Assembly (NCBI GenBank): GCA_004321915.1
Contig: SCQE01000088.1
Span: 62,001 to 126,000 of the forward strand
Reading direction: 5' to 3'
DNA: 64,000 nucleotides
Source of the DNA: Nitrospirota bacterium
Lineage (GTDB): Bacteria; Nitrospirota; Thermodesulfovibrionia; Thermodesulfovibrionales; Dissulfurispiraceae
The position numbers and the translations under genes were made by a program. The notes under the pieces were generated by a model that saw only the letters and a program-made list of their open reading frames with translations, had not been told where the DNA came from and ran no database searches. Shown in pieces: positions 2-62,473 of the stretch. How positions within the stretch are numbered: position 1 is the stretch's first letter; each line of letters begins with the position of its first letter.

Positions 2-238
2 GCAGAGAAGGCCTTACGGTTTTTCGCCGCCAAAAACGCCATCTCCTTTCCGGTGCTTATGGACAAAGAGCGCATAGTTTACTCGGACAAATACAAATTA
101 TTCGGGATTCCTGCCACGCTGATCATAGATAAAAAGGGTATAATAACCGAAAAGATCATAGGCGAAATAGATTGGGACGCCCCTGAGATGAAACGGAAAA
201 TTCTCAGGCTGCTCGATGCAAAACAGACCAAAAAATAA
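2..238 (+). CDS. TlpA-like thioredoxin-fold protein, C-terminal part
   Basis: Only the last 78 residues are in the window; the gene enters from the left edge in frame 2 and ends with TAA at 236-238. The visible part has the second half of a thioredoxin fold, including the cis-proline segment FGIPATLIIDKKG that lines the active site in TlpA/ResA-type proteins. The CxxC pair would lie upstream and cannot be seen. Family members are exported or membrane-anchored thiol-disulfide oxidoreductases. It is the first visible gene of a dense redox operon: the next start codon is 12 bp away behind a GGAGGA site. Family assignment is fairly safe; substrate unknown. Confidence 0.75.
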   Translation, partial: AEKALRFFAAKNAISFPVLMDKERIVYSDKYKLFGIPATLIIDKKGIITEKIIGEIDWDAPEMKRKILRLLDAKQTKK

Positions 239-250
239 TCGGAGGAAACC

Positions 251-1462
251 ATGAACCGTCGTGATTTTTTGAAGACCTCGGCTTTGGCCGCAGCCGCAGT
301 AGCGGCAGCCCCCTTAACGACTGAAAGCGCGCCGGAGCCGTCCGCAGGCAAGCCCTCAGTAAAAAGCTACCGCGAAATAGGCAAGACCGGTTTGAAGATG
401 AGCGACATATCCTTCGGGGCAGGCAGACTTGCGTCCCCTTCGATGATACTGCGCGCTGTGGACAGCGGGATAAATTACTTCGACACGGCCCCTGATTACG
501 GGGCATCCGAGAAACTTATAGGCGAGGCCATGTCAAAGATAAAAAGAGACAAAATAATCATCACTACAAAGTTCTGCAACCACACGCCGTATCCGGGACA
601 TCTGCCCTTAGGCTCTAAAAAAAGGGAGTATGTGGCGTCTGTGGACGACAGCCTTGCGCGGCTTAAAACCGATTATGTCGATTTCATATTCGTTCATGCC
701 GTAGGCGGAGAGAGGGGCAGGAATAAAGAGCTTGAAGACGAGAAAAAAAGGCTCCTCGACGATGAAATGCTCTCGGCCGTCGATACATTGAAAAAAGCGG
801 GAAAGGTCAAATTTTTAGGCGTTTCGTCCCACGGACCCGCAAACCTTGAATCGCTTTTGATGACTGCGGTCAAGTCCGGCCATTTTGATTTGATCATGCC
901 TTCTTTCAACTTCATGAATTTTCCGAAACTGCCCGAAGTAATGAAAGAGGCCCACAAACGCAAGGTGGGCGTTGTTGCTATGAAGACGCTTGCGGGGGCC
1001 AAAGACACGAATATAGAAGCAAAGAACGAAGAGTTTGCGCATGCCGCGTTCAAGTGGGTGTTAAAGCATCCTGAAGTCAGCGGATTGGTAGTAACCATGA
1101 AAACCGTGTCCGATATAGAAACATACTTGGCCGCATCCGGCAAAAAGTTTACTCAGAGCGACAGGAAAGCGCTTAATGAATACGCGATGATGTTCGGCAG
1201 GGAATACTGCCGCACAGGCTGCAATGAGTGCGAGAGCTTATGCAATCGCGGGGTAGAGATAGCGAACATAATGCGTTATCAGATGTATTTTAAAGACTAC
1301 GGCATGGAAAAAAGGGCGATCGAATCTTATACCTCTGTCAGGAGCAACTCCGCGGCTTGCGGAGATTGCGACAACCCTGTGTGTGTTTCAGGATGCCCTT
1401 ACGGACTGTCCGTAAAAAATATGCTTGCCGACGCGCACGAGATGCTGACCTTATCGGTTTAA
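251..1462 (+). CDS. Tat-exported aldo/keto reductase with Fe-S-type Cys-rich tail
   Basis: The 403-residue product begins with a twin-arginine signal (NRRDFLK followed by an Ala-rich stretch to about residue 25), so export in folded form is predicted. Residues about 38-300 are an aldo/keto reductase barrel. The catalytic tetrad can be seen as Asp78 and Tyr83 (FDTAPDYG), Lys107 (TTKFC) and His149 (FVHAVGG). The tail carries two cysteine groups, C320/C324/C327/C331 and C370/C373/C378/C382, the last as CPYG, which resembles ferredoxin-type [4Fe-4S] binding. The start follows GGAGGA at 241-246. NAD(P)H is not expected outside the cytoplasm, so the Fe-S tail may deliver electrons instead; that is inference. 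The stop overlaps the next start (TAATG). Confidence 0.85.
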   Translation: MNRRDFLKTSALAAAAVAAAPLTTESAPEPSAGKPSVKSYREIGKTGLKMSDISFGAGRLASPSMILRAVDSGINYFDTAPDYGASEKLIGEAMSKIKRDKIIITTKFCNHTPYPGHLPLGSKKREYVASVDDSLARLKTDYVDFIFVHAVGGERGRNKELEDEKKRLLDDEMLSAVDTLKKAGKVKFLGVSSHGPANLESLLMTAVKSGHFDLIMPSFNFMNFPKLPEVMKEAHKRKVGVVAMKTLAGAKDTNIEAKNEEFAHAAFKWVLKHPEVSGLVVTMKTVSDIETYLAASGKKFTQSDRKALNEYAMMFGREYCRTGCNECESLCNRGVEIANIMRYQMYFKDYGMEKRAIESYTSVRSNSAACGDCDNPVCVSGCPYGLSVKNMLADAHEMLTLSV

Positions 1463-2421
1463 TGGGAGTCTCTTTTTTTCTCAGGGCAATACTTATCCTT
1501 GTATTGCCCTGCATTGCGGCCGTGATTTACATTAAGGGGCAGAAATACGACCCTGCGCTTATAGACTTCAAATCCGCCGCGAATACATCATCCGGCAGCG
1601 GGCAGGCGATACCCGCGAAACAGCAGGGTCCAACTTCCTCGCTGCCTTCCGATATCGAAGGCTTCAAACAGTTCGGTAAAATACGGGAGTTCAATAAAGA
1701 CAACCTTTTCGAGCATGTGAACGGTCATGCCGAATACTTCATTTCCGCAGGATTTCAGAAGCTGTCCGTGATCGAATACGTCTCTTCAACCTCAAGATCA
1801 GAGAAGCCCGAGCTGCAGGCAGAGGTTTATGAGATGGGCAGCGGGCTTCAAGCCTTTGGCGTTCTTGTTGACGAGTCAGGAGCAAAGGCGGAAGCAGTGA
1901 ATATCGGCGCTATGGGATTCAAGACATCCGGAGGAATATCTTTTTTCAAAGGGAAATATTATGTAAAAATAGCGCCCTACAGCGGTAAGCCCCCTTTGAT
2001 GCTCTTTGCCTCAAGATTCGAAAAAAAACTGACGGCGGCAAGCGAAGAATTTTCGGCCTTCTCCAAGCTGCCTGCAATAGGCAAGACCATTGCAACAAGA
2101 TTTGTGAAAGAAGGCTACCGGGGACTCGATTTCTTCAAAAATGTGATAGAAAGGGAATACAATGTTGACGGAAGAACAGTGCAGATAGCGCTGATATCAG
2201 GCAAAGATAAGGAGATAAAAGATTTTGGCGCAGCGCTGAACTCCTATCTCCAAAAATCCGCTGTCAGCTTTGAGAAAGAGAACAAACAGAACAAAGAAAT
2301 TTACAAGATCTCGGACAAATACGAAGGCGACTGGTTCGTAGTTGTAGAAAAGACGGCAGCCTTCGGGATTTTCGGAGCTCCCGATGCTTCTATCTTGCGC
2401 TATTTTATTAAGGAGGGCTAG
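1462..2421 (+). CDS. DUF6599-like membrane-anchored protein
   Basis: I start the gene at the ATG at 1462, which shares one base with the upstream stop, rather than at in-frame codons inside the aldo/keto reductase gene. The 319-residue product has a single N-terminal membrane segment (about residues 5-24) and then a soluble domain that should face the periplasm. The segment with NLFEHVNGHAEYF followed by an alternating beta-rich region resembles the DUF6599 family, whose function is not known to me. No metal or cofactor motif is obvious. It sits between two Tat-type redox proteins, with overlaps on both sides, so it is probably an accessory or assembly partner in that system. Confidence 0.7.
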   Translation: MGVSFFLRAILILVLPCIAAVIYIKGQKYDPALIDFKSAANTSSGSGQAIPAKQQGPTSSLPSDIEGFKQFGKIREFNKDNLFEHVNGHAEYFISAGFQKLSVIEYVSSTSRSEKPELQAEVYEMGSGLQAFGVLVDESGAKAEAVNIGAMGFKTSGGISFFKGKYYVKIAPYSGKPPLMLFASRFEKKLTAASEEFSAFSKLPAIGKTIATRFVKEGYRGLDFFKNVIEREYNVDGRTVQIALISGKDKEIKDFGAALNSYLQKSAVSFEKENKQNKEIYKISDKYEGDWFVVVEKTAAFGIFGAPDASILRYFIKEG

Positions 2422-3413
2422 TGCCTTCAAAGCACAATAAAACAGAACCCGGGCTTACGCGCAGGGATTTCATGATAAAGACAGCCGCTGTCTGCGGCGC
2501 GTCTGCGACTGTGGGTTTGTGGGGATACGCGTTTTACAGCAACGAGCCCGTAAGGCGGCAGGACACCAAAATATTCACCTTCAAGGATTACAGGGTCGAG
2601 GATGTTAAAACTTATCCTGATCTTGCCGTAAGCCGGGGCACAGACGCTGAAAAAATGGTGCGCGCCGCTGTTGACAGGATCGGCGGAATAAGCCGTTTTG
2701 TGAAGCCGGGAGAGAGAGTTCTGATAAAACCTAATGTGTCGTGGGACAGACAGCCTGAACAGGCGGCCAATACCAACCCGGAAGTCGTGGCCGCAGTAGT
2801 GAGAATGTGCATGGAGGCCAAGGCCTCTGCCGTATGGGTCACCGATGTTTCGGTGAACGACCCCTACAGATGCTTTGCCCGTTCAGGGGTCGAAGATGCT
2901 GTAAAGAAAAACAGCGGGATTCTGAAGTTCGCAACAGAAAATGATTTCGTTCCGACCGACCTGAAAGGCAAGGCGCTCAAGGTCTGGCCGGTCAGCGCGT
3001 TCTTTCATCAGGTGGACAAGCTTATAAATATCCCGATGGTCAAACACCACTCGTTAAGCAAATGCACGATGGCGATGAAGAACCTTTACGGCGTACTGGG
3101 CGGACAGCGCAACCGCCTGCATCAGGATATAAACACATCTATCGCAGACCTTGCCGTGGCTATTAAACCGACATTGACGATCATGGACGCTACAAGAATT
3201 CTTATGCGGAACGGGCCGACCGGAGGAAACCTTGCGGATGTTGCAAGAGGAGATACAATAATAGCCGGAACAGATATAGTCTCGATAGAAACCTATGGCC
3301 TCTCTTTCCTCAGCCTTAAGCCTGAAAACATTCCATACATTATGATGGCAGAACAGCGCGGCGCAGGCACTACCGCCATAAAATCGCTGAATATAGCAGA
3401 GATCAGCGTATGA
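2421..3413 (+). CDS. Tat-type DUF362 domain protein
   Basis: The GTG start at 2421 overlaps the previous stop (TAGTG) and lies 3 bp after a strong AAGGAGGG site (2410-2417). The 330-residue product has a twin-arginine motif (TRRDFMIK, residues 13-20) followed by a hydrophobic stretch to about residue 43, so it is either exported or left anchored by the Tat system. The rest is a DUF362 domain, with the typical IKPNVSWD and HHSLSKCTMAMKN segments. DUF362 proteins often occur with ferredoxins, but their chemistry is largely undescribed. The ATG of the next gene overlaps its end by 4 bp. Domain assignment is good; role unknown. Confidence 0.8.
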   Translation: MPSKHNKTEPGLTRRDFMIKTAAVCGASATVGLWGYAFYSNEPVRRQDTKIFTFKDYRVEDVKTYPDLAVSRGTDAEKMVRAAVDRIGGISRFVKPGERVLIKPNVSWDRQPEQAANTNPEVVAAVVRMCMEAKASAVWVTDVSVNDPYRCFARSGVEDAVKKNSGILKFATENDFVPTDLKGKALKVWPVSAFFHQVDKLINIPMVKHHSLSKCTMAMKNLYGVLGGQRNRLHQDINTSIADLAVAIKPTLTIMDATRILMRNGPTGGNLADVARGDTIIAGTDIVSIETYGLSFLSLKPENIPYIMMAEQRGAGTTAIKSLNIAEISV

Positions 3414-4927
3414 TAAAAAAATTGCTCTCGCTCAAAAACATCCGGCGGCTGTATGCGGCCTTTTTCCTTGCTCTGTTTGTAATTCTTGTAGGCATCACCA
3501 GCTTCAGGAGCATGAAGGGATATCAGGTGTCGCTATTTCTCGAACTCGACCCGCTCGTTGCCCTCTCGTCATTCCTGACAAGCTGGACCGTATATAAAGG
3601 GCTTGCCCTTTCGCTCATCATAATTGTCGGGACGATGGTATTCGGCAGGTTCTTCTGTTCATGGATATGCCCGATGGGGATAATCAACCAGATAGCAGGG
3701 AGCATATTCAATAAACTACGCGCTGTTGACCTGATAAAAATGAATGCGTACAGGACCATCTACCGCTTCAAATATTACGGTCTGGCGCTTTTCCTTGTGC
3801 TTGCGGCTTTTGGAACAATACAGACCGGCCTTCTCGATCCTATCCCGTTTATAACGAGGGCCTTTGCAGTATCAGTATATCCTGCGGTCAACTACTGGAG
3901 CGGCGGCTTTTATCTCAAACAGCCTGTTTTTCAGGGAGGGTTTCTGCTCGCGGCAATTTTTATCACGGTGCTTTTTGCTAACAGGTTCATAAACCGCTTC
4001 TGGTGCCGCTCGCTCTGCCCTCTCGGAGCTTTGCTCGGCCTGCTCTCGTTCAGGCCGATAATGCAGATATGGCGGGATACTGCCAAATGCAACGATTGCA
4101 TGAAATGCGTACAGAACTGCCACGGCGCATGCGACCCGCATGCTTCTTTAAGGACGAGCGAGTGCATGGTCTGCATGAACTGCATATCTGATTGTCCTGA
4201 AAACGCAATGCACTATGGCCTGCCAAAAAACGCAAGCTCGGTCCACACGCCGCTTGATGTTAACCGCCGCAGGCTTATAGAAACGGCAGTGTTCGGGACA
4301 GTCATGTTCCCTATGATGCGGAGTGTCATAACCTCAAAGACCGCTGCGCAGCACAGCGTTATAAGGCCGCCCGGATCTATTGCAGAAGGGGATTTTCTGC
4401 GCAGATGCATCAAGTGCGGGGAGTGCATGAAGGTCTGTCCGACAAACGTTATACAGCCTGCATTGCTTGAGGCCGGATTCGAAGGCATCTGGACTCCCAT
4501 TCTGCTTAATAAAATCGGCTATTGCGAATACAACTGCGTACTATGCAGCAGGGTCTGCCCTACCGGCGCGATAACTCCGCTCACAGTAGAAAAAAAGATA
4601 GGAAAGCCCCCGGCGCAAAAACCTCTAAAGATAGGCATCGCTTTTTACGACAGGGGCCGCTGCCTGCCGTGGTCCATGCATACCGAATGCATCGTGTGCG
4701 AAGAGGTCTGCCCCACATCTCCCAAGGCGATCTGGTTTCAGGATGTAGAGATGCAGCTGAGAGACGGCACAACAAAGGTATTCAAAAGGCCTTACATGGA
4801 CCCTGAGTTATGCATAGGCTGCGGAATATGCGAGAACAAATGTCCGGTGCGGGACAAGCCGGCAGTGCGTGTAACATCAATAGGAGAGACGAGATCTCTC
4901 ACCAACCAGATGAGCCTGAAAAGCTGA
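3410..4927 (+). CDS. Membrane polyferredoxin, NapH-like plus NapG-like fusion
   Basis: The 505-residue protein has two parts. Residues 1-270 look like NapH/MauN: about four membrane segments (near 15-32, 62-80, 122-140, 178-195), two CxxxCP loops (C83/C87 and C199/C203), then two [4Fe-4S] ferredoxin motifs (from C227 and from C252). A second twin-arginine-like motif follows at 285-288 (NRRRLIETAVFG) with a short hydrophobic run, then a NapG-like polyferredoxin with several more CxxCxxCxxxCP-type groups (from C333, C372, C427 and C468). If the internal segment inserts in the membrane, clusters would lie on both sides, which suits transmembrane electron transfer to the Tat-exported proteins encoded upstream. 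The topology is inference. Confidence 0.8.
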   Translation: MIKKLLSLKNIRRLYAAFFLALFVILVGITSFRSMKGYQVSLFLELDPLVALSSFLTSWTVYKGLALSLIIIVGTMVFGRFFCSWICPMGIINQIAGSIFNKLRAVDLIKMNAYRTIYRFKYYGLALFLVLAAFGTIQTGLLDPIPFITRAFAVSVYPAVNYWSGGFYLKQPVFQGGFLLAAIFITVLFANRFINRFWCRSLCPLGALLGLLSFRPIMQIWRDTAKCNDCMKCVQNCHGACDPHASLRTSECMVCMNCISDCPENAMHYGLPKNASSVHTPLDVNRRRLIETAVFGTVMFPMMRSVITSKTAAQHSVIRPPGSIAEGDFLRRCIKCGECMKVCPTNVIQPALLEAGFEGIWTPILLNKIGYCEYNCVLCSRVCPTGAITPLTVEKKIGKPPAQKPLKIGIAFYDRGRCLPWSMHTECIVCEEVCPTSPKAIWFQDVEMQLRDGTTKVFKRPYMDPELCIGCGICENKCPVRDKPAVRVTSIGETRSLTNQMSLKS

Positions 4928-5039: not shown

Positions 5040-5243
5040 ATGGCTTTTGAAGGAAAAGTAAAGTGGTTCAACGAATCCAAGGGATTTGGCTTCATCCAGC
5101 AGGACAATGGGCCGGATGTATTTGTTCACTACTCTTCGCTCAAACAGGAAGGCTTTAAGACCCTTGCTGAAGGCCAGAGGGTCAGGTTTGACGTTGTCGA
5201 AGGCGACCGCGGACCAAAGGCCACAAACGTAGAAAGAATCTAA
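5040..5243 (+). CDS. csp: Cold-shock domain protein
   Basis: A 67-residue single cold-shock (OB-fold) domain, the usual length for CspA-type proteins. Both RNA-binding motifs are present: RNP1 as KGFGFI and RNP2 as VFVHYS. These proteins bind single-stranded RNA and DNA and melt RNA structure in the cytoplasm. The start is fixed by AAGGAGGA at 5023-5030. It has its own promoter (4939-4968) and terminator (5251-5280), so it is monocistronic and not part of the redox operon upstream. Confidence 0.95.
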
Positions 5244-5250
5244 CCAATCC

Positions 5251-5280
5251 GGGGCCCGCAAAGGGCCCCTTTTATTTTTT
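5251..5280 (+). terminator. Intrinsic terminator after the cold-shock gene
   Basis: GGGGCCC (5251-5257) pairs with GGGCCCC (5263-5269) around a GCAAA loop and is followed by a T-rich tract to 5280. It begins 7 bp after the stop codon. Bases 5281-5399 hold no gene that I can see, only an AT-rich stretch with a 7-bp inverted repeat (AAATTTC/GAAATTT, 5337-5355). Confidence 0.85.
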
Positions 5281-7936: not shown

Positions 7937-8242
7937 CTATACAGCTGCTGCGCGATATGGCCTGATAGATTTAAGTGTACCGGCAATATTGCTTCTTGCG
8001 ACTGCGGCATCATAATCCGATTGAAGGCCGAGCCAGAATTCAACGCTGTTGCCAAAGTACCTTGCAAGTCTCAGCGCAGTATCTGCAGTTATGGCCCTGC
8101 GTTCCCTGACAATATCATTAATCCGGGGGGCGGGAACCATAATAGCAATTGCGAGAGCATTGGCAGTTATCCCCATAGGGGACAGGAACTCTTCCCTCAG
8201 GATTTCTCCGGGGTGTATAGGCCTCATCCTGTTTTCTATCAT
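7937..8242 (-). CDS. higA: HigA antitoxin, XRE-type
   Basis: A 101-residue helix-turn-helix protein with the classic HigA opening MRPIHPGEILREEFLSPMGI and the ending SVEFWLGLQSDYD. It neutralises HigB and represses the operon by binding its promoter. The ATG at 8242 has an AAGGAGG site (complement of 8250-8256), so I keep the five-residue extension before MRPIHP. The gene is 12 bp downstream of higB, in the toxin-first order usual for this type. A good operator candidate is present at 8545-8559. Confidence 0.93.
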   Translation of the reverse strand: MIENRMRPIHPGEILREEFLSPMGITANALAIAIMVPAPRINDIVRERRAITADTALRLARYFGNSVEFWLGLQSDYDAAVARSNIAGTLKSIRPYRAAAV

Positions 8243-8254
8243 TTCAGAACCTCC

Positions 8255-8533
8255 TTAGTGATAATCAACAATCTCAACATAATAGGCATTCCCCTTATCG
8301 AACCTGAAGCATACCCGCCATTGGTCATTAATGCGTATGCTCCACTGTCCTCTTCGGGCATCTTTAAGCTTTTCAAGCCTATTGCGCGGCGGCGCTTTCA
8401 AGTCCTCAAGACTGACAGCCCGGTGCAGCATTTCAAGCTTTCTTTCTGCCACAGCCCTAAACCCTTCAAAACGAGCAACCCGCTTGCCAGAGAAAAGCCT
8501 GCCTGTATCTTCGCATGCAAAAGACAAAATCAT
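8255..8533 (-). CDS. higB: HigB toxin, RelE-like mRNA interferase
   Basis: The product shows the HigB/RelE fold signature, including LKAPPRNRLEKLKDARRGQ and the ending RINDQWRVCFRF ... VEIVDYH. HigB proteins cut mRNA on the ribosome. I choose the ATG at 8531-8533 (92 residues, the family's usual length) over an in-frame codon 8 residues upstream, because that earlier codon lies inside the predicted promoter/operator. No ribosome site is visible before 8533, and the predicted transcription start falls at about the A of the ATG, so the message may be leaderless. Confidence 0.9.
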   Translation of the reverse strand: MILSFACEDTGRLFSGKRVARFEGFRAVAERKLEMLHRAVSLEDLKAPPRNRLEKLKDARRGQWSIRINDQWRVCFRFDKGNAYYVEIVDYH

Positions 8534-8538
8534 GGCTA

Positions 8539-8567
8539 ATAATATAATGCGCCGCATTAAATGTCAA
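8539..8567 (-). promoter_or_regulatory. higBA promoter with built-in operator
   Basis: On the minus strand TTGACA (complement of 8562-8567) and TATTAT (complement of 8539-8544) are 17 bp apart. The spacer holds a perfect palindrome, TAATGCG-N-CGCATTA (8545-8559), placed exactly where a repressor would block RNA polymerase. HigA is the obvious ligand. The -10 box ends 5 bp before the higB ATG. Confidence 0.7.
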
Positions 8568-8719: not shown

Positions 8720-9145
8720 ATGAAATGTGGCGTTGTTATTGACACTAATGTTTTAATATCGGCCCTGCGCTCGAAAAGAGGAGCATCCTATCGATTGCTT
8801 ATGGGTATCGGACAAGGACATTTTGATATTAATATTTCTGTGCCTTTAGCGCTTGAATACGAAAAATCCGCAAAAAAAATAATTGATGAAATAAAACTTT
8901 CATCTGAGGATATTGATGATGTTCTTGACTATATATGCTCTATTGCAAGACCTTGGAAAATATTTTATTTATGGCGGCCGTTTTTAAAAGACCCTAAAGA
9001 CGATATGGTGTTGGAGCTGGCGGTAGCGTCAAAGAGCGATTTTATCGTTACATACAATAAAAAAGATTTTGAAGGCGCTGGACATTTTGGTGTTAAGGTT
9101 GTAACTGCAAACGAATTTTTGAAAAAAATCGGAGGTTTACAATGA
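8720..9145 (+). CDS. PIN-domain toxin, probable ribonuclease
   Basis: A 141-residue PIN domain of the toxin-antitoxin type (COG1569-like). The acidic active-site residues can be placed at Asp8 (IDTNVLISAL), Glu46, Asp94/Asp95 (DPKDD) and Asp107. Such toxins are Mg-dependent ribonucleases acting on RNA in the cytoplasm. The start cannot lie further downstream because Asp8 is catalytic. No ribosome site precedes it and the -10 box is 7 bp away, which again suggests a leaderless message. The stop overlaps the antitoxin start (ATGA). Confidence 0.88.
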   Translation: MKCGVVIDTNVLISALRSKRGASYRLLMGIGQGHFDINISVPLALEYEKSAKKIIDEIKLSSEDIDDVLDYICSIARPWKIFYLWRPFLKDPKDDMVLELAVASKSDFIVTYNKKDFEGAGHFGVKVVTANEFLKKIGGLQ

Positions 9146-14349: not shown

Positions 14350-15516
14350 CTACCCCTCCGTTGCGTGCACGACATCGATGCCCTTGAGTATTTCATCAAG
14401 GTCCTGCGACCTTATAATATATCCGTAGTCGCCGATGGCAGACCTGAAAACACCGCTCACAGGCATATGCTTCACGATCAGTCCGTAGAGTTTTTCGAGC
14501 GCCTGTTCGTGAGAATAGCGATAGCGTTTGCCGTGTTTTCTGCCGATGTAGCAACAGTGGTATTTTCTCGAATAACCGGCCTCGAACTTGTTCCGGGCAA
14601 CAACATTGGCCCACTCTTGGTATATGTCAATGTCGTTGGCATAGTTGAACATGTCCGTTGTATAACCTCCCGGGGGCCTCATATTGGCTTCAAGAGCGAC
14701 TATCTTCCCTTCCTTATGCGTTCTGAAAAACTCTATATGGAAAAACCTCTCTCTTATATCAAACGCCCTTACGGCGCTTCTTCCTGCAGCCTCGAGATCT
14801 TCCGGCAGTTCGCGGTATGAGTAGTAGTAGAGGTGTGTGTCGTCGTTCACGGTTTCCATAATGCCCTGCATAAAGTGATGTCCGGTGTAAAAAACTATAT
14901 TTCCGTCCCTGTCGGTCAAGCCGTCAAAGCTTAAAATATCGCCGGATACGAACTCTTCGAAAATATAATCGACCGCAGGTTTGTCCGCAAAAAAATCTTC
15001 CAATTCCTTGTCGTTTTTTATCTTGTACGTGTTCAGCGCCCCTACCCCGCGGTCCGGCTTTGCTACAACGGGGTAGCCCACCTCGGAGACGAACAACTTC
15101 GCGGCTTCCATTTCGCCTATCACCCTGCCGCGCGCAACCGGAACGCCCGCATCGACAAATTTCCGCTTCATTAAGGATTTGCGTTTTATGACATCGATGC
15201 CGTCCGTTTTTATCCCGAACATATTGAAGTCGGTGCGTATCTTTGCTTCGAGGTCGAGCCAGTATTCATTAAAGGAATCCAGCCTGTCCATTTTGCCGTG
15301 TCTGTGGGTAAGGTGGCCGACCGCGCGCAGGATTTGTTCATAATCCCCCATATCGTCCACCTTGTAATATTCGGAGAGGGCCCCTTTAAGCTCGTCACGC
15401 AAATTTTCATACGGCCCGTCGCCTATGCCTAAAACATTGGCCCCGGCCCTTCTGAGCCCGACGCTGAAAAGGTAATAGTTGTCAGGAAAGTGGGGAGAAA
15501 AGTGTATTATATTCAT
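14350..15516 (-). CDS. ATP-grasp ligase of unknown substrate
   Basis: The start at 15516 (MNIIHFSPHFP) gives 388 residues; an in-frame codon at 15549 would add eleven without better support. The ATP-grasp fold is shown by the nucleotide-binding region YPVVAKPDRGVGA, the hinge FEEFVSGD and the metal-binding pair FFHIEFF ... VALEANMRPPGG near residues 270-295. These enzymes join a carboxylate to an amine or thiol through an acyl phosphate. The C-terminal ~90 residues have no domain I recognise. Pairing with the esterase-like gene downstream is the main clue to its role. Confidence 0.8.
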   Translation of the reverse strand: MNIIHFSPHFPDNYYLFSVGLRRAGANVLGIGDGPYENLRDELKGALSEYYKVDDMGDYEQILRAVGHLTHRHGKMDRLDSFNEYWLDLEAKIRTDFNMFGIKTDGIDVIKRKSLMKRKFVDAGVPVARGRVIGEMEAAKLFVSEVGYPVVAKPDRGVGALNTYKIKNDKELEDFFADKPAVDYIFEEFVSGDILSFDGLTDRDGNIVFYTGHHFMQGIMETVNDDTHLYYYSYRELPEDLEAAGRSAVRAFDIRERFFHIEFFRTHKEGKIVALEANMRPPGGYTTDMFNYANDIDIYQEWANVVARNKFEAGYSRKYHCCYIGRKHGKRYRYSHEQALEKLYGLIVKHMPVSGVFRSAIGDYGYIIRSQDLDEILKGIDVVHATEG

Positions 15517-15547
15517 GACAGATATATTAGCATTTTGGAGGACAAGC

Positions 15548-15661
15548 ATGGCAAAAGCGCTATGTCTGAATACCGGCGCATGCCCTGCCTATAATTTTTG
15601 CAGATACCACGCTTTATCGTTTATAGTTATCTATGCGCCTGATACATCGTTCGATATTTAA
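15548..15661 (+). CDS. Possible 37-codon Cys-rich leader ORF before lptF
   Basis: An ATG at 15548 preceded by GGAGG (15537-15541) opens a 37-codon frame that ends inside lptF, overlapping its start by 29 bp. The peptide has a C-x7-C-x5-C-x3-H spacing and a hydrophobic stretch. lptF itself has no visible ribosome site, so translational coupling from this frame could explain how it is read. It overlaps, on the opposite strand, the alternative start of the ATP-grasp gene. It may equally be chance. Confidence 0.3.
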   Translation: MAKALCLNTGACPAYNFCRYHALSFIVIYAPDTSFDI

Positions 15662-16694
15662 AGAGCTTCTGCTGAACTTTTTCCTGTCGCTGTTGTTCCT
15701 GACCTTTACGCTGATGATGGAACACCTGCTGCGTTTAAGCCGTCTTTTGTCCGGCGTAGGGGCATCCGTTGCCGACATAACAAAAATGATCTTCTATCTC
15801 CAACCGCAGATATTGATACTCACAATACCTATGGCCCTGCTGCTTTCCACGCTCCTGACCTACGGCCGGATGAACTCCGACAACGAACTGATAATAATGC
15901 GGGGCGCAGGAATATCGTTCAGAATGATCTCGCTGCCTGTGGCCTATCTGGGCGCAGTATGTTTTTTTGCGGGTATCGCCATGAGCTTCTATTTAAGTCC
16001 TCTCGGCAGCGGCCTGCTGAATGCAAAGGTCTCGGAGATACTGACGACAAAGGCGTCTATGGCGATAGAGGAGGGTGTGTTCAATACCGCCTTCAAAGAC
16101 ACCGTAATCCTTGTGAAGGAGAAACCGGCCCCGAACATACTTTCCGGGATATTCATCGTTGACGAAAGGAAAAAGGACGAACCCAAACTGATCACGGCAA
16201 ATGAAGGGATCATTGTGCCCGAAAATAACGCGCTAAGTTTTTCCCTGAAAAACGGCCAGATATACATAACAAAAAAGAATACCGTGACCGAAATACGCTT
16301 TAAGACCTACAATTTCAAACTCAACCTTTTATTCGATCCTCCGGTCAAAAGCAACAGTGAGCTGACCCCGAAAGAGCTTTTGAAGAGAGCAAAGGAAGAC
16401 GAACAGCGGCGCATACCGATAATGCTCGAATTCCACAGACGCCTCTCGATGCCCGCCATATGTCTAATAATCATCTTCCTAGGCCCCGCGCTTTCTCTGC
16501 TCTCGGGGAAATCGGGCAAACTCGGCGGACTGACCATAGGGCTGTTTGTATTTGCGGTTTATTACACACTGCTGTTGTATGGTGAAAACCTTTCGCGTTC
16601 GGGCAAGGCGCCGGTCTTTGCCGGTTCTTGGCTTTCTTTCTTGTTATTGAGCTTTTTTGCGATAATAGTTTTTGAAAAGGTAAACAAACGCTGA
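15633..16694 (+). CDS. lptF: LPS export permease LptF
   Basis: A 353-residue inner-membrane protein of the YjgP/YjgQ family. With LptG and the LptB ATPase it extracts lipopolysaccharide from the inner membrane and passes it to the periplasmic bridge. Three membrane segments lie in the first 110 residues, then a periplasmic beta-jellyroll domain (about 125-260), then three more segments near the C-terminus, the family layout. The conserved NELIIMRGAGIS loop is the LptB contact. It is joined to lptG by TGAATG. lptB is not in the window. Confidence 0.9.
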   Translation: MRLIHRSIFKELLLNFFLSLLFLTFTLMMEHLLRLSRLLSGVGASVADITKMIFYLQPQILILTIPMALLLSTLLTYGRMNSDNELIIMRGAGISFRMISLPVAYLGAVCFFAGIAMSFYLSPLGSGLLNAKVSEILTTKASMAIEEGVFNTAFKDTVILVKEKPAPNILSGIFIVDERKKDEPKLITANEGIIVPENNALSFSLKNGQIYITKKNTVTEIRFKTYNFKLNLLFDPPVKSNSELTPKELLKRAKEDEQRRIPIMLEFHRRLSMPAICLIIIFLGPALSLLSGKSGKLGGLTIGLFVFAVYYTLLLYGENLSRSGKAPVFAGSWLSFLLLSFFAIIVFEKVNKR

Positions 16695-61078: not shown

Positions 61079-62473
61079 TTATGTCGCAGCGTTCTTCAGG
61101 CCCGCTGCAACCGCTTCGATTTCCGAATCCTGAATCGTTCTGGCATCCAAAATAAGGGTCTCATCTTTGATTCGGGCGATTATGCACGGACTGCCCAAGC
61201 GCAACCGCTCTTCCAGCTTGTTAACAGAAATTCCATCGGGTTTTATTGCAACGACGAATGTCGGGAATTCGATTTCCGGAAGCGCGCCGCCTCCTGATTG
61301 CGAGGAGTCTTCCATTAAAGTCACCTTTACAGTGTCCGGCAAAACCGCATCCGCCGCAGCCTTTATCTTTTCGGCCCTCTGCCTGATATCTTCGGTTTTT
61401 TGTAGCAGCATACGGAGCGTCGGGATTTCGTTTTTTGCGGTCTCCTCGTCGAGGTATTTCATCAGCACGGATTCAAAAGCCGCAAGCGTAAGTTTGTCTA
61501 TTCTTACCGCACGCATGAGCGGATTGCGGGATATTTTTTCTATCAGGCTTTGTTTGCCGACGATAACGCCTCCCTGCGGGCCCCCTAAAAGTTTGTCTCC
61601 GCTAAAAGAGACTATATCGCAACCGGTTTTTACAATGCTCTGGACTGTCGGTTCGATATTAATGCCGTAAGGCTTCAGGTCAACAAGGCAGCCGCTTCCG
61701 AGGTCGAACATCACGGGGACATTGTGTTTCCTTCCGAGAGCAACAAGTTCATCGAGCTCTACGGCTTTTGTAAAACCTATCATCCTGTAATTCGACTGGT
61801 GTACTTTTAATAAAAGCGCGGTCTTGTCGCAGATGGCGCGTTCGTAATCCTGAATATGGGTTTTGTTGGTCGTGCCCACCTCTCGCAGCACCGCCCCGCT
61901 GCTGCTCATGACATCGGGTATCCTGAACGAGCCGCCTATTTCTACAAGCTCTCCCCGGGACACGATGACCTCTTTGCCCTGCGCAAGCGCGGCAAGGCAG
62001 ACAAGAACAGCCGCGGCATTATTATTTACTATGAGCCCCGCTTCTGCGCCGGTTATATCTCTTATGAGTTTCTGTACATGCGAGTATCTCTTTCCCCTTT
62101 TACCGCCGGGGATATCGTATTCGAGGTTTGAATAGCCGCAGGCAATGCGTTTTACATTGTCCAGAACATCCCCTGTAAGTATCGACCTGCCTAAATTCGT
62201 ATGGATGACCGTGCCTGTGGCATTGATAACGTTCTTAAGGCTAAGGTCCGAAAGGGCCTGTGCACGGGCTTCAATCGAATGGAACATCTCTTCCATGACC
62301 AGTTCGTTTATTTCGCCCTTCAATATCGCCTGTCTTGTAGATTCTATGGTCTCCCGGATCGCCTGAAGCACATATCTGCGCGGATATGTTTTTAGCCAGC
62401 TTGTCCCGCTTGTAGACCGCAGGACCTCATCCACAGCCGGCATTGCCGAAAGCAACCTTTGTTTGTCCGACAT
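61079..62473 (-). CDS. selA: Selenocysteine synthase
   Basis: A 464-residue PLP enzyme that converts seryl-tRNA(Sec) to selenocysteinyl-tRNA(Sec). The PLP lysine is in FSGDKLLGGPQGG; NATGTVIHTNLGRSIL and GKRGKRYSHVQ are also typical. It implies that the organism makes selenoproteins, though selB, selD and tRNA(Sec) are not in the window and I found no selenoprotein gene here. Confidence 0.95.
   Translation of the reverse strand: MSDKQRLLSAMPAVDEVLRSTSGTSWLKTYPRRYVLQAIRETIESTRQAILKGEINELVMEEMFHSIEARAQALSDLSLKNVINATGTVIHTNLGRSILTGDVLDNVKRIACGYSNLEYDIPGGKRGKRYSHVQKLIRDITGAEAGLIVNNNAAAVLVCLAALAQGKEVIVSRGELVEIGGSFRIPDVMSSSGAVLREVGTTNKTHIQDYERAICDKTALLLKVHQSNYRMIGFTKAVELDELVALGRKHNVPVMFDLGSGCLVDLKPYGINIEPTVQSIVKTGCDIVSFSGDKLLGGPQGGVIVGKQSLIEKISRNPLMRAVRIDKLTLAAFESVLMKYLDEETAKNEIPTLRMLLQKTEDIRQRAEKIKAAADAVLPDTVKVTLMEDSSQSGGGALPEIEFPTFVVAIKPDGISVNKLEERLRLGSPCIIARIKDETLILDARTIQDSEIEAVAAGLKNAAT

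Follow-up and report, generated by a model that had tools for sequence, protein, structure and literature searches.

A conserved Nitrospirota operon may couple an exported aldo/keto reductase and a LarA-fold DUF362 protein to a transmembrane iron-sulphur relay

To our knowledge, the nickel-pincer nucleotide (NPN) is known only as the cofactor of LarA-type racemases and epimerases. In LarA a thioamide bond joins the NPN to a lysine, a histidine completes the nickel coordination, and His108 and His174 form the acid/base pair, with some homologues carrying a single catalytic histidine (PMC12611868). About 15% of surveyed genomes encode larBCE without larA, and NPN-binding proteins beyond LarA have been inferred (PMC11796402). 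In a second described system, the ferredoxins NapH and NapG constitute a menaquinol-oxidising module (PMC3475470). Here we analysed a 64,000-nucleotide stretch of DNA (the window; G000:C9:62001-126000) from a Nitrospirota genome whose near relatives include Ca. Magnetominusculus and Thermodesulfovibrionia metagenome-assembled genomes. At its 5′ end lies an operon encoding an aldo/keto reductase (AKR) with a twin-arginine translocation (Tat) signal, a DUF6599 protein, a Tat-type DUF362 protein and a membrane polyferredoxin. We propose that an exported hydride-transfer AKR and an NPN-loaded DUF362 protein would be coupled to a quinone-linked transmembrane Fe-S relay, a reading to which we assign a probability of roughly one half.

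Five plus-strand reading frames were confirmed at this locus, and both their order and their Pfam families agree with the initial annotation, which had described five overlapping or nearly abutting genes. The spacing or overlap between neighbouring genes is a few bases (the AKR and DUF6599 genes overlap via TAATG). The start of the first gene precedes the window, at about position 61720 of G000:C9, and the complete gene is contained in L004:3720-4238. The features of the operon, in window coordinates, are as follows.

2 to 238, plus strand: 3′ part of a gene for a TlpA/ResA-like thioredoxin with a CxxC motif (WATYCGIC; Pfam AhpC-TSA/Redoxin)
251 to 1462, plus strand: Tat AKR of 403 amino acids (Pfam Aldo_ket_red, 1.4e-34, and TAT_signal; catalytic tetrad; Foldseek matches to AKRs)
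1208 to 1396, plus strand: C-terminal Cys region of the AKR, with eight cysteines in two 4-Cys motifs (all eight invariant in 23 homologues)
1462 to 2421, plus strand: DUF6599 protein of 319 amino acids (Pfam PF20244, 3.6e-28; transmembrane segment at residues 7-25)
2421 to 3413, plus strand: Tat DUF362 protein (Pfam PF04015, 6e-49; top 18 Foldseek matches all of the LarA family)
3048 to 3122, plus strand: LarA-like motif within DUF362 (H210, K220, H234), from motif and profile alignment
3410 to 4927, plus strand: fused polyferredoxin of NapH-NapG type (many Pfam Fer4 domains; NapH and NapG matches)
4268 to 4327, plus strand: internal Tat-signal-like segment of the polyferredoxin, RRRLIETAVFGTVMFPMMRS, between its NapH-like and NapG-like halves

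Conservation of the gene set was assessed in 246 Nitrospirota genomes, with co-occurrence counted without phylogenetic correction and the polyferredoxin scored as present where a full-scoring match was found. The AKR and DUF6599 were found in the identical 23 genomes, every one of which also encodes the polyferredoxin, and because these three families co-occur so strictly across the sample the gene set is far from a chance assembly. DUF362 was present in all 60 genomes with a full-scoring polyferredoxin. The AKR is missing from 37 of these 60, and in most of the contexts fetched from such genomes the DUF362 and polyferredoxin genes are adjacent; the DUF362-polyferredoxin pair is a more widespread core than the four-gene set. 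The order AKR-DUF6599-DUF362-polyferredoxin is conserved across Nitrospirota families and in Deltaproteobacteria (L009, L010, L012). Two loci have insertions that set the DUF362 and polyferredoxin genes apart from AKR-DUF6599 upstream of them: a DNA methylase and Vsr are among the inserted genes of L069, and L076 has a type III restriction-modification pair at this position. The conserved core is thus four genes, AKR, DUF6599, DUF362 and polyferredoxin, and we consider it very probable that they form a functional extracytoplasmic redox unit.

Co-occurrence of all five families in other genomes was the neighbourhood check set out in the initial annotation, and it holds for four of them. Only within the genus (L067) is the TlpA-like thioredoxin found alongside the other genes, and it probably lies outside the conserved core; its candidacy as a core member was rejected on account of this restriction. 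One could still regard the locus as a thiol or cofactor maturation operon defined by the thioredoxin, with the remaining proteins as helpers in thiol or haem chemistry, as the location of the thioredoxin gene just 12 bases before that of the AKR might suggest. However, outside the genus the thioredoxin is missing from the locus while the other four genes persist, and we judge this explanation highly improbable.

The polyferredoxin was often found directly beside a distant Tat AKR in Bacteroidota and Victivallales, and therefore this operon is not the only setting in which AKR and polyferredoxin are partners. Like the operon, these neighbourhoods combine a polyferredoxin with a Tat-Fe-S AKR, here directly adjacent; unlike it, they have no DUF6599, their AKR is 23-28% identical, and DUF362 is often elsewhere or absent. 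Flanking genes in the genomes carrying the operon gave no hint of a substrate, the neighbours being unrelated housekeeping or restriction-modification genes that vary between genomes, and the Bacteroidales neighbourhoods inspected gave none either.

Other arrangements of these families were also encountered. A second type of DUF6599 and Tat-DUF362 pair, without AKR or polyferredoxin, occurs at L075:7197-9466, so that the two families associate twice; it adjoins DUF350 and a gene that by eye resembles glutathionylspermidine synthase. Two Tat-DUF362 copies lie near an FG-GAP protein and a polyferredoxin in genomes of family f22 (L091, L101). A closed genome (L006; CP070737.1) encodes a 55%-identical AKR with DUF6599, DUF362 and polyferredoxin absent at the locus, and its LarC match is confined to the C-terminal end of the protein.

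The initial annotation treated DUF362 as an anonymous electron carrier, and it is this assignment that the structural comparison changes. When the DUF362 model (predicted local distance difference test score, pLDDT, 80.7) was searched against the PDB with Foldseek, each of the top 18 matches was a LarA/NPN enzyme (E 1.5e-6 to 1.7e-4, probability 1.00), with the lactate racemases 5HUQ and 8EZF, both NPN-loaded, among them; the first match to an unrelated protein (5e-3) had an E-value about 30-fold weaker. DUF362 and DUF2088/LarA share a Pfam clan (PMC11770544). An hhalign comparison of 65 diverse DUF362s with eight Nitrospirota LarAs produced a single collinear block of 214 columns (P 0.0014) with the motif His and Lys in register. 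Lar_N (PF09861) also weakly matches ferredoxin-type DUF362s over the motif region (1.1e-4 to 8.5e-4), these proteins reaching at most 22.0 bits against a cut-off of 23.3.

The motif itself, [KR]xHx9K[NQ], occurs in 65/65 DUF362s, and in 60 of them a His follows the motif Lys at +13 to +16; the eight LarAs all have PHx9K and a His at +16. In the window protein, the invariant H210 corresponds to LarA His174 and stands 10 residues before the Lys, the same distance as in LarA, K220 corresponds to the cofactor tether Lys184 and is invariant in the 65 DUF362s, and H234, at +14 from the Lys, corresponds to the nickel ligand His200. The LarA numbering of Lys184 and His200 matches the invariant columns found here. 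On the basis of its model, DUF362 is a LarA-fold protein of the LarA superfamily, and it is probably an enzyme in its own right rather than a carrier. It shares with LarA (lactate racemase; DUF2088, PF09861; Pfam clan CL0471) the fold, the H174/K184/H200 motif and the presence of larBCE in the genome, but it is Tat-exported, shorter (about 270 residues after the signal) and without a clear His108, and it is paired with a polyferredoxin whereas LarA is a stand-alone racemase. In the literature on DUF362 that we found, the sole link to LarA was its use as an outgroup.

The genes for NPN synthesis are present in the host genome. LarB (264 bits, cut-off 175), LarC (467 bits) and LarE (310 bits, cut-off 150) all score well above the curated cut-offs, and a search of the same genome for LarA gave no Lar_N match at all. 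Across the Nitrospirota sample, LarC was found in 197 genomes and LarA over its cut-off in 20; among the 148 genomes bearing DUF362, 143 have LarC. Further lar-linked arrangements came from outside the phylum. One locus, found via its Tat AKRs (L034), has three of them in the same orientation as genes for a polyferredoxin, LarC and LarE, and it prompted a LarC search of the class Lentisphaeria in which 60 LarC loci were inspected; the polyferredoxin stood beside LarC in three of the 60 and DUF362 in one. L181, which was among them, is the L034 contig, and L034/L181 is therefore not independent confirmation; the search itself yielded L185 and L218. L218 contains a polyferredoxin, LarC and two Tat AKRs, and its LarC is 71.5% identical to that of L034/L181; as these two are related, the lar-linked arrangements amount to two to three independent ones. 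In L185 (G445:C1:1701000-1714000), Tat-DUF362, polyferredoxin, LarB, LarC and LarE form a same-strand run without LarA, the three Lar proteins pass their NCBIfam equivalog cut-offs, and a divergent Fe-S AKR lies beside the run. Of all these loci, L185 is the clearest candidate for an operon whose DUF362 depends on NPN.

Two nickel regulators were noted in passing. In the deltaproteobacterial locus L009, a NikR-type regulator at 15199-15675 lies some 2 kb beyond the 3′ end of the four genes, which is a weak hint, and another NikR directly follows LarE in L200.

A number of results weigh against NPN in DUF362. TM-scores of the model against LarA are moderate (0.36-0.48), the wide hhalign alignment has a probability of only 17%, a narrow-profile hhalign of DUF362 against LarA gave no match, and the window DUF362 is not matched by Lar_N. 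The region corresponding to LarA His108 holds no invariant His, its conserved residues being K103 and D142, although one catalytic His suffices in some LarA homologues (PMC12611868). Within Nitrospirota, LarC is also present in 54 of the 98 DUF362-negative genomes, and therefore the LarC-DUF362 association is not exclusive; it is also confounded by phylogeny. No lar genes lie beside the operon in the host genome, and no lar-DUF362 linkage was seen within the phylum. Finally, LarC was not found in four Bacteroidota genomes in which the DUF362 motif is intact, and a Bacteroides DUF362 (L045) is 53% identical to that of L185. In the LarC-less Bacteroidota, either NPN is obtained by another route, or DUF362 does not always, or does not ever, need it.

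LarC also occurs with neither LarA over its cut-off nor DUF362 in 53 Nitrospirota genomes, of which the listed examples belong mainly to Nitrospira-type families (f27, f30); such genomes may contain a different NPN user or a relict pathway. These Nitrospira-type genomes, the Bacteroidota that have DUF362 and polyferredoxin but lack LarC, and the missing His108 equivalent would all suit an alternative in which the Fe-S relay is the same and the LarA-fold DUF362 operates without NPN, using another nucleotide or metal or acting as an adaptor between polyferredoxin and AKR, so that the AKR would be the sole enzyme. Against it stand the conservation of precisely those residues that in LarA tether the cofactor (Lys), act as acid/base (His) and bind the nickel (His), the Tat-DUF362-polyferredoxin-LarB-LarC-LarE run of L185, and a full larBCE without larA in the host genome. 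We regard it as rather unlikely, and consider that the operon's DUF362 probably, on balance, contains NPN.

The polyferredoxin provides the predicted route for electrons across the membrane. By NCBIfam matches its first half resembles NapH and its second half NapG, with scores below the equivalog cut-offs in both cases (NapG 94.7/269 bits, NapH 82.1/234 bits). With the NapH/NapG (MauN/MauM) quinol-dehydrogenase ferredoxins it shares a NapH-like core that has four transmembrane helices, positively charged inner loops, a pair of CxxxCP motifs and two four-Cys [4Fe-4S]-type motifs, as well as a NapG-like part whose four further motifs of this type (Cys groups at 333-478) stand behind an RR segment. 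The internal RR is invariant in 15 homologues and precedes a short hydrophobic stretch, the NapG model aligns this segment to the NapG Tat signal, and the L185 homologue has a textbook internal Tat signal, SRRDFLVGGTVGALALLG. In contrast to NapH and NapG, the two parts are fused into one protein, and its partners are AKR, DUF6599 and DUF362 rather than NapA/NapB; no nap genes were found at the locus. The positive-inside rule predicts that the first, 2x[4Fe-4S] part is cytoplasmic, and the NapG-like C-terminal part behind the RR-hydrophobic segment is predicted to face outward. With NapH-like clusters inside and the NapG-like part outside, the protein is therefore predicted to be a transmembrane Fe-S conduit. 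The initial annotation had placed all soluble parts outside, which agrees with the NapG-like part and does not extend to the first 2x[4Fe-4S] part.

A further indication of electron transfer comes from DUF362 proteins that are not exported. Cytoplasmic DUF362s, including the host genome's second copy (L083), have a two-cluster Fer4 insertion beside the motif in the same chain, whereas exported DUF362s are without the insertion and travel with the polyferredoxin instead. Fe-S clusters are thus supplied in cis or in trans, and electrons may therefore pass into or out of the hydride centre, something that a racemase would not require. The polyferredoxin could instead be a maintenance partner whose electrons keep the oxygen-sensitive DUF362 cofactor and the AKR Fe-S clusters active or restore them to that state, with DUF362 an ordinary NPN racemase or epimerase outside the membrane. 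One proposal for NapGH is that it serves the reductive maturation of NapA and not electron supply (PMC6195509), which also tells against our reading of the polyferredoxin; NPN proteins are labile (PMC11796402), and LarA chemistry requires no net electrons. Nevertheless, the stoichiometric, operon-bound DUF362-polyferredoxin pairing and the Fer4 insertions of cytoplasmic DUF362s suggest regular electron transfer, and we find a pure maintenance role improbable.

The AKR has the hallmarks of its superfamily together with features of an exported Fe-S protein. Its AlphaFold model (pLDDT 76.9) matched ordinary AKRs in Foldseek, the best being L-galactose dehydrogenase (7SMI/8SCC), and it shares with them the (beta/alpha)8 fold and the catalytic tetrad Asp-Tyr-Lys-His; it differs by the Tat signal and by an 8-Cys C-terminal tail, the latter absent from the best-matching solved AKRs. 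In 23 homologues down to about 31% identity, the tetrad (D78/Y83/K107/H149), the Tat residues R3, R4 and F6, and the cysteines C320/324/327/331 and C370/373/378/382 are all invariant, which bears out the Tat signal (Pfam TAT_signal) and the two Cys clusters described in the initial annotation. The two 4-Cys motifs are predicted to bind two [4Fe-4S] clusters, and the Cys region has a weak NCBIfam match to the DsrO ferredoxin (9e-10). Given its typical fold and tetrad, the protein might be taken for an ordinary cytoplasmic-type NADPH-dependent AKR with a spurious Tat-like N-terminus in an incidental neighbourhood. The invariance of the Tat residues, a distribution identical to that of DUF6599 and strictly within polyferredoxin-bearing genomes, and the Tat AKRs beside polyferredoxins in Bacteroidota and Lentisphaeria make this extremely improbable. 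Free NAD(P)H is unavailable outside the membrane; a tightly bound cofactor in the exported AKR is possible. Loss of the nicotinamide contacts was considered and dropped, since the solved AKR 9YEB has similar residues. A literature search pairing aldo-keto reductase with Tat or Fe-S found nothing relevant.

The DUF6599 protein is predicted to consist of an N-terminal membrane anchor and an exported domain. A remote Pfam search returned DUF6599 itself plus chance matches only, and no literature on the family was found.

Computation shows that the operon is conserved and its families co-occur, that its proteins have the Tat and Cys features and DUF362 the fold and motif of LarA, and that larBCE is present without larA. 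NPN occupancy, electron flow, net redox chemistry, the substrate and the role of DUF6599 belong to the scheme that we infer. According to this scheme, AKR and DUF362 would be folded and loaded with cofactor in the cell before export by Tat. The NapH-NapG fusion would connect Fe-S clusters at the outer face with the quinone pool, the cytoplasm or both. DUF362 would most likely carry NPN attached to Lys220, while His234 would bind the nickel and His210 would serve in acid/base catalysis; the protein would transfer hydride to or from a hydroxy/keto substrate in a net redox reaction unlike that of LarA, exchanging electrons with the [4Fe-4S] clusters of the polyferredoxin. The Fe-S AKR would act on the same or a linked substrate via the same relay, and DUF6599 would be an anchored accessory that might serve the AKR as scaffold or docking factor. 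A predicted transmembrane relay serving an extracytoplasmic electron path is well supported. The chain from the membrane to an exported reductase put forward in the initial annotation is upheld as a path by co-occurrence, Tat signals and the NapH-NapG architecture; depending on the direction of electron flow, the AKR may be a reductase or an oxidase.

Beyond the operon, a short cold-shock gene (5040-5243) is followed by a hairpin that marks the outer limit of the transcription unit.

5251 to 5269 (L004:9251-9269), plus strand: strong terminator-like hairpin, 3′ of the cold-shock gene

Further downstream, small adjoining minus-strand genes at 7937-8557 resemble by eye a HigA/HigB-type toxin-antitoxin pair, and a PIN-domain-like gene, also recognised by eye, follows at 8720-9145.

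More generally, we tentatively suggest, at somewhat less than even odds, that, in many genomes with NPN synthesis and no LarA, DUF362s are the missing non-LarA NPN users and perform net ferredoxin-coupled hydride chemistry, with Fe-S clusters in cis in cytoplasmic members and on a NapHG-like partner in exported ones. DUF362 is a large family of unknown function that has the LarA fold, the key residues and, in L185, an operon with larB, larC and larE. If the proposal is true, it would give a function to a widespread domain, answer the question of which protein receives the cofactor in genomes that make NPN without LarA, and extend NPN biology to net redox reactions and to sites beyond the cytoplasm, the exported DUF362 being the first NPN enzyme found there.

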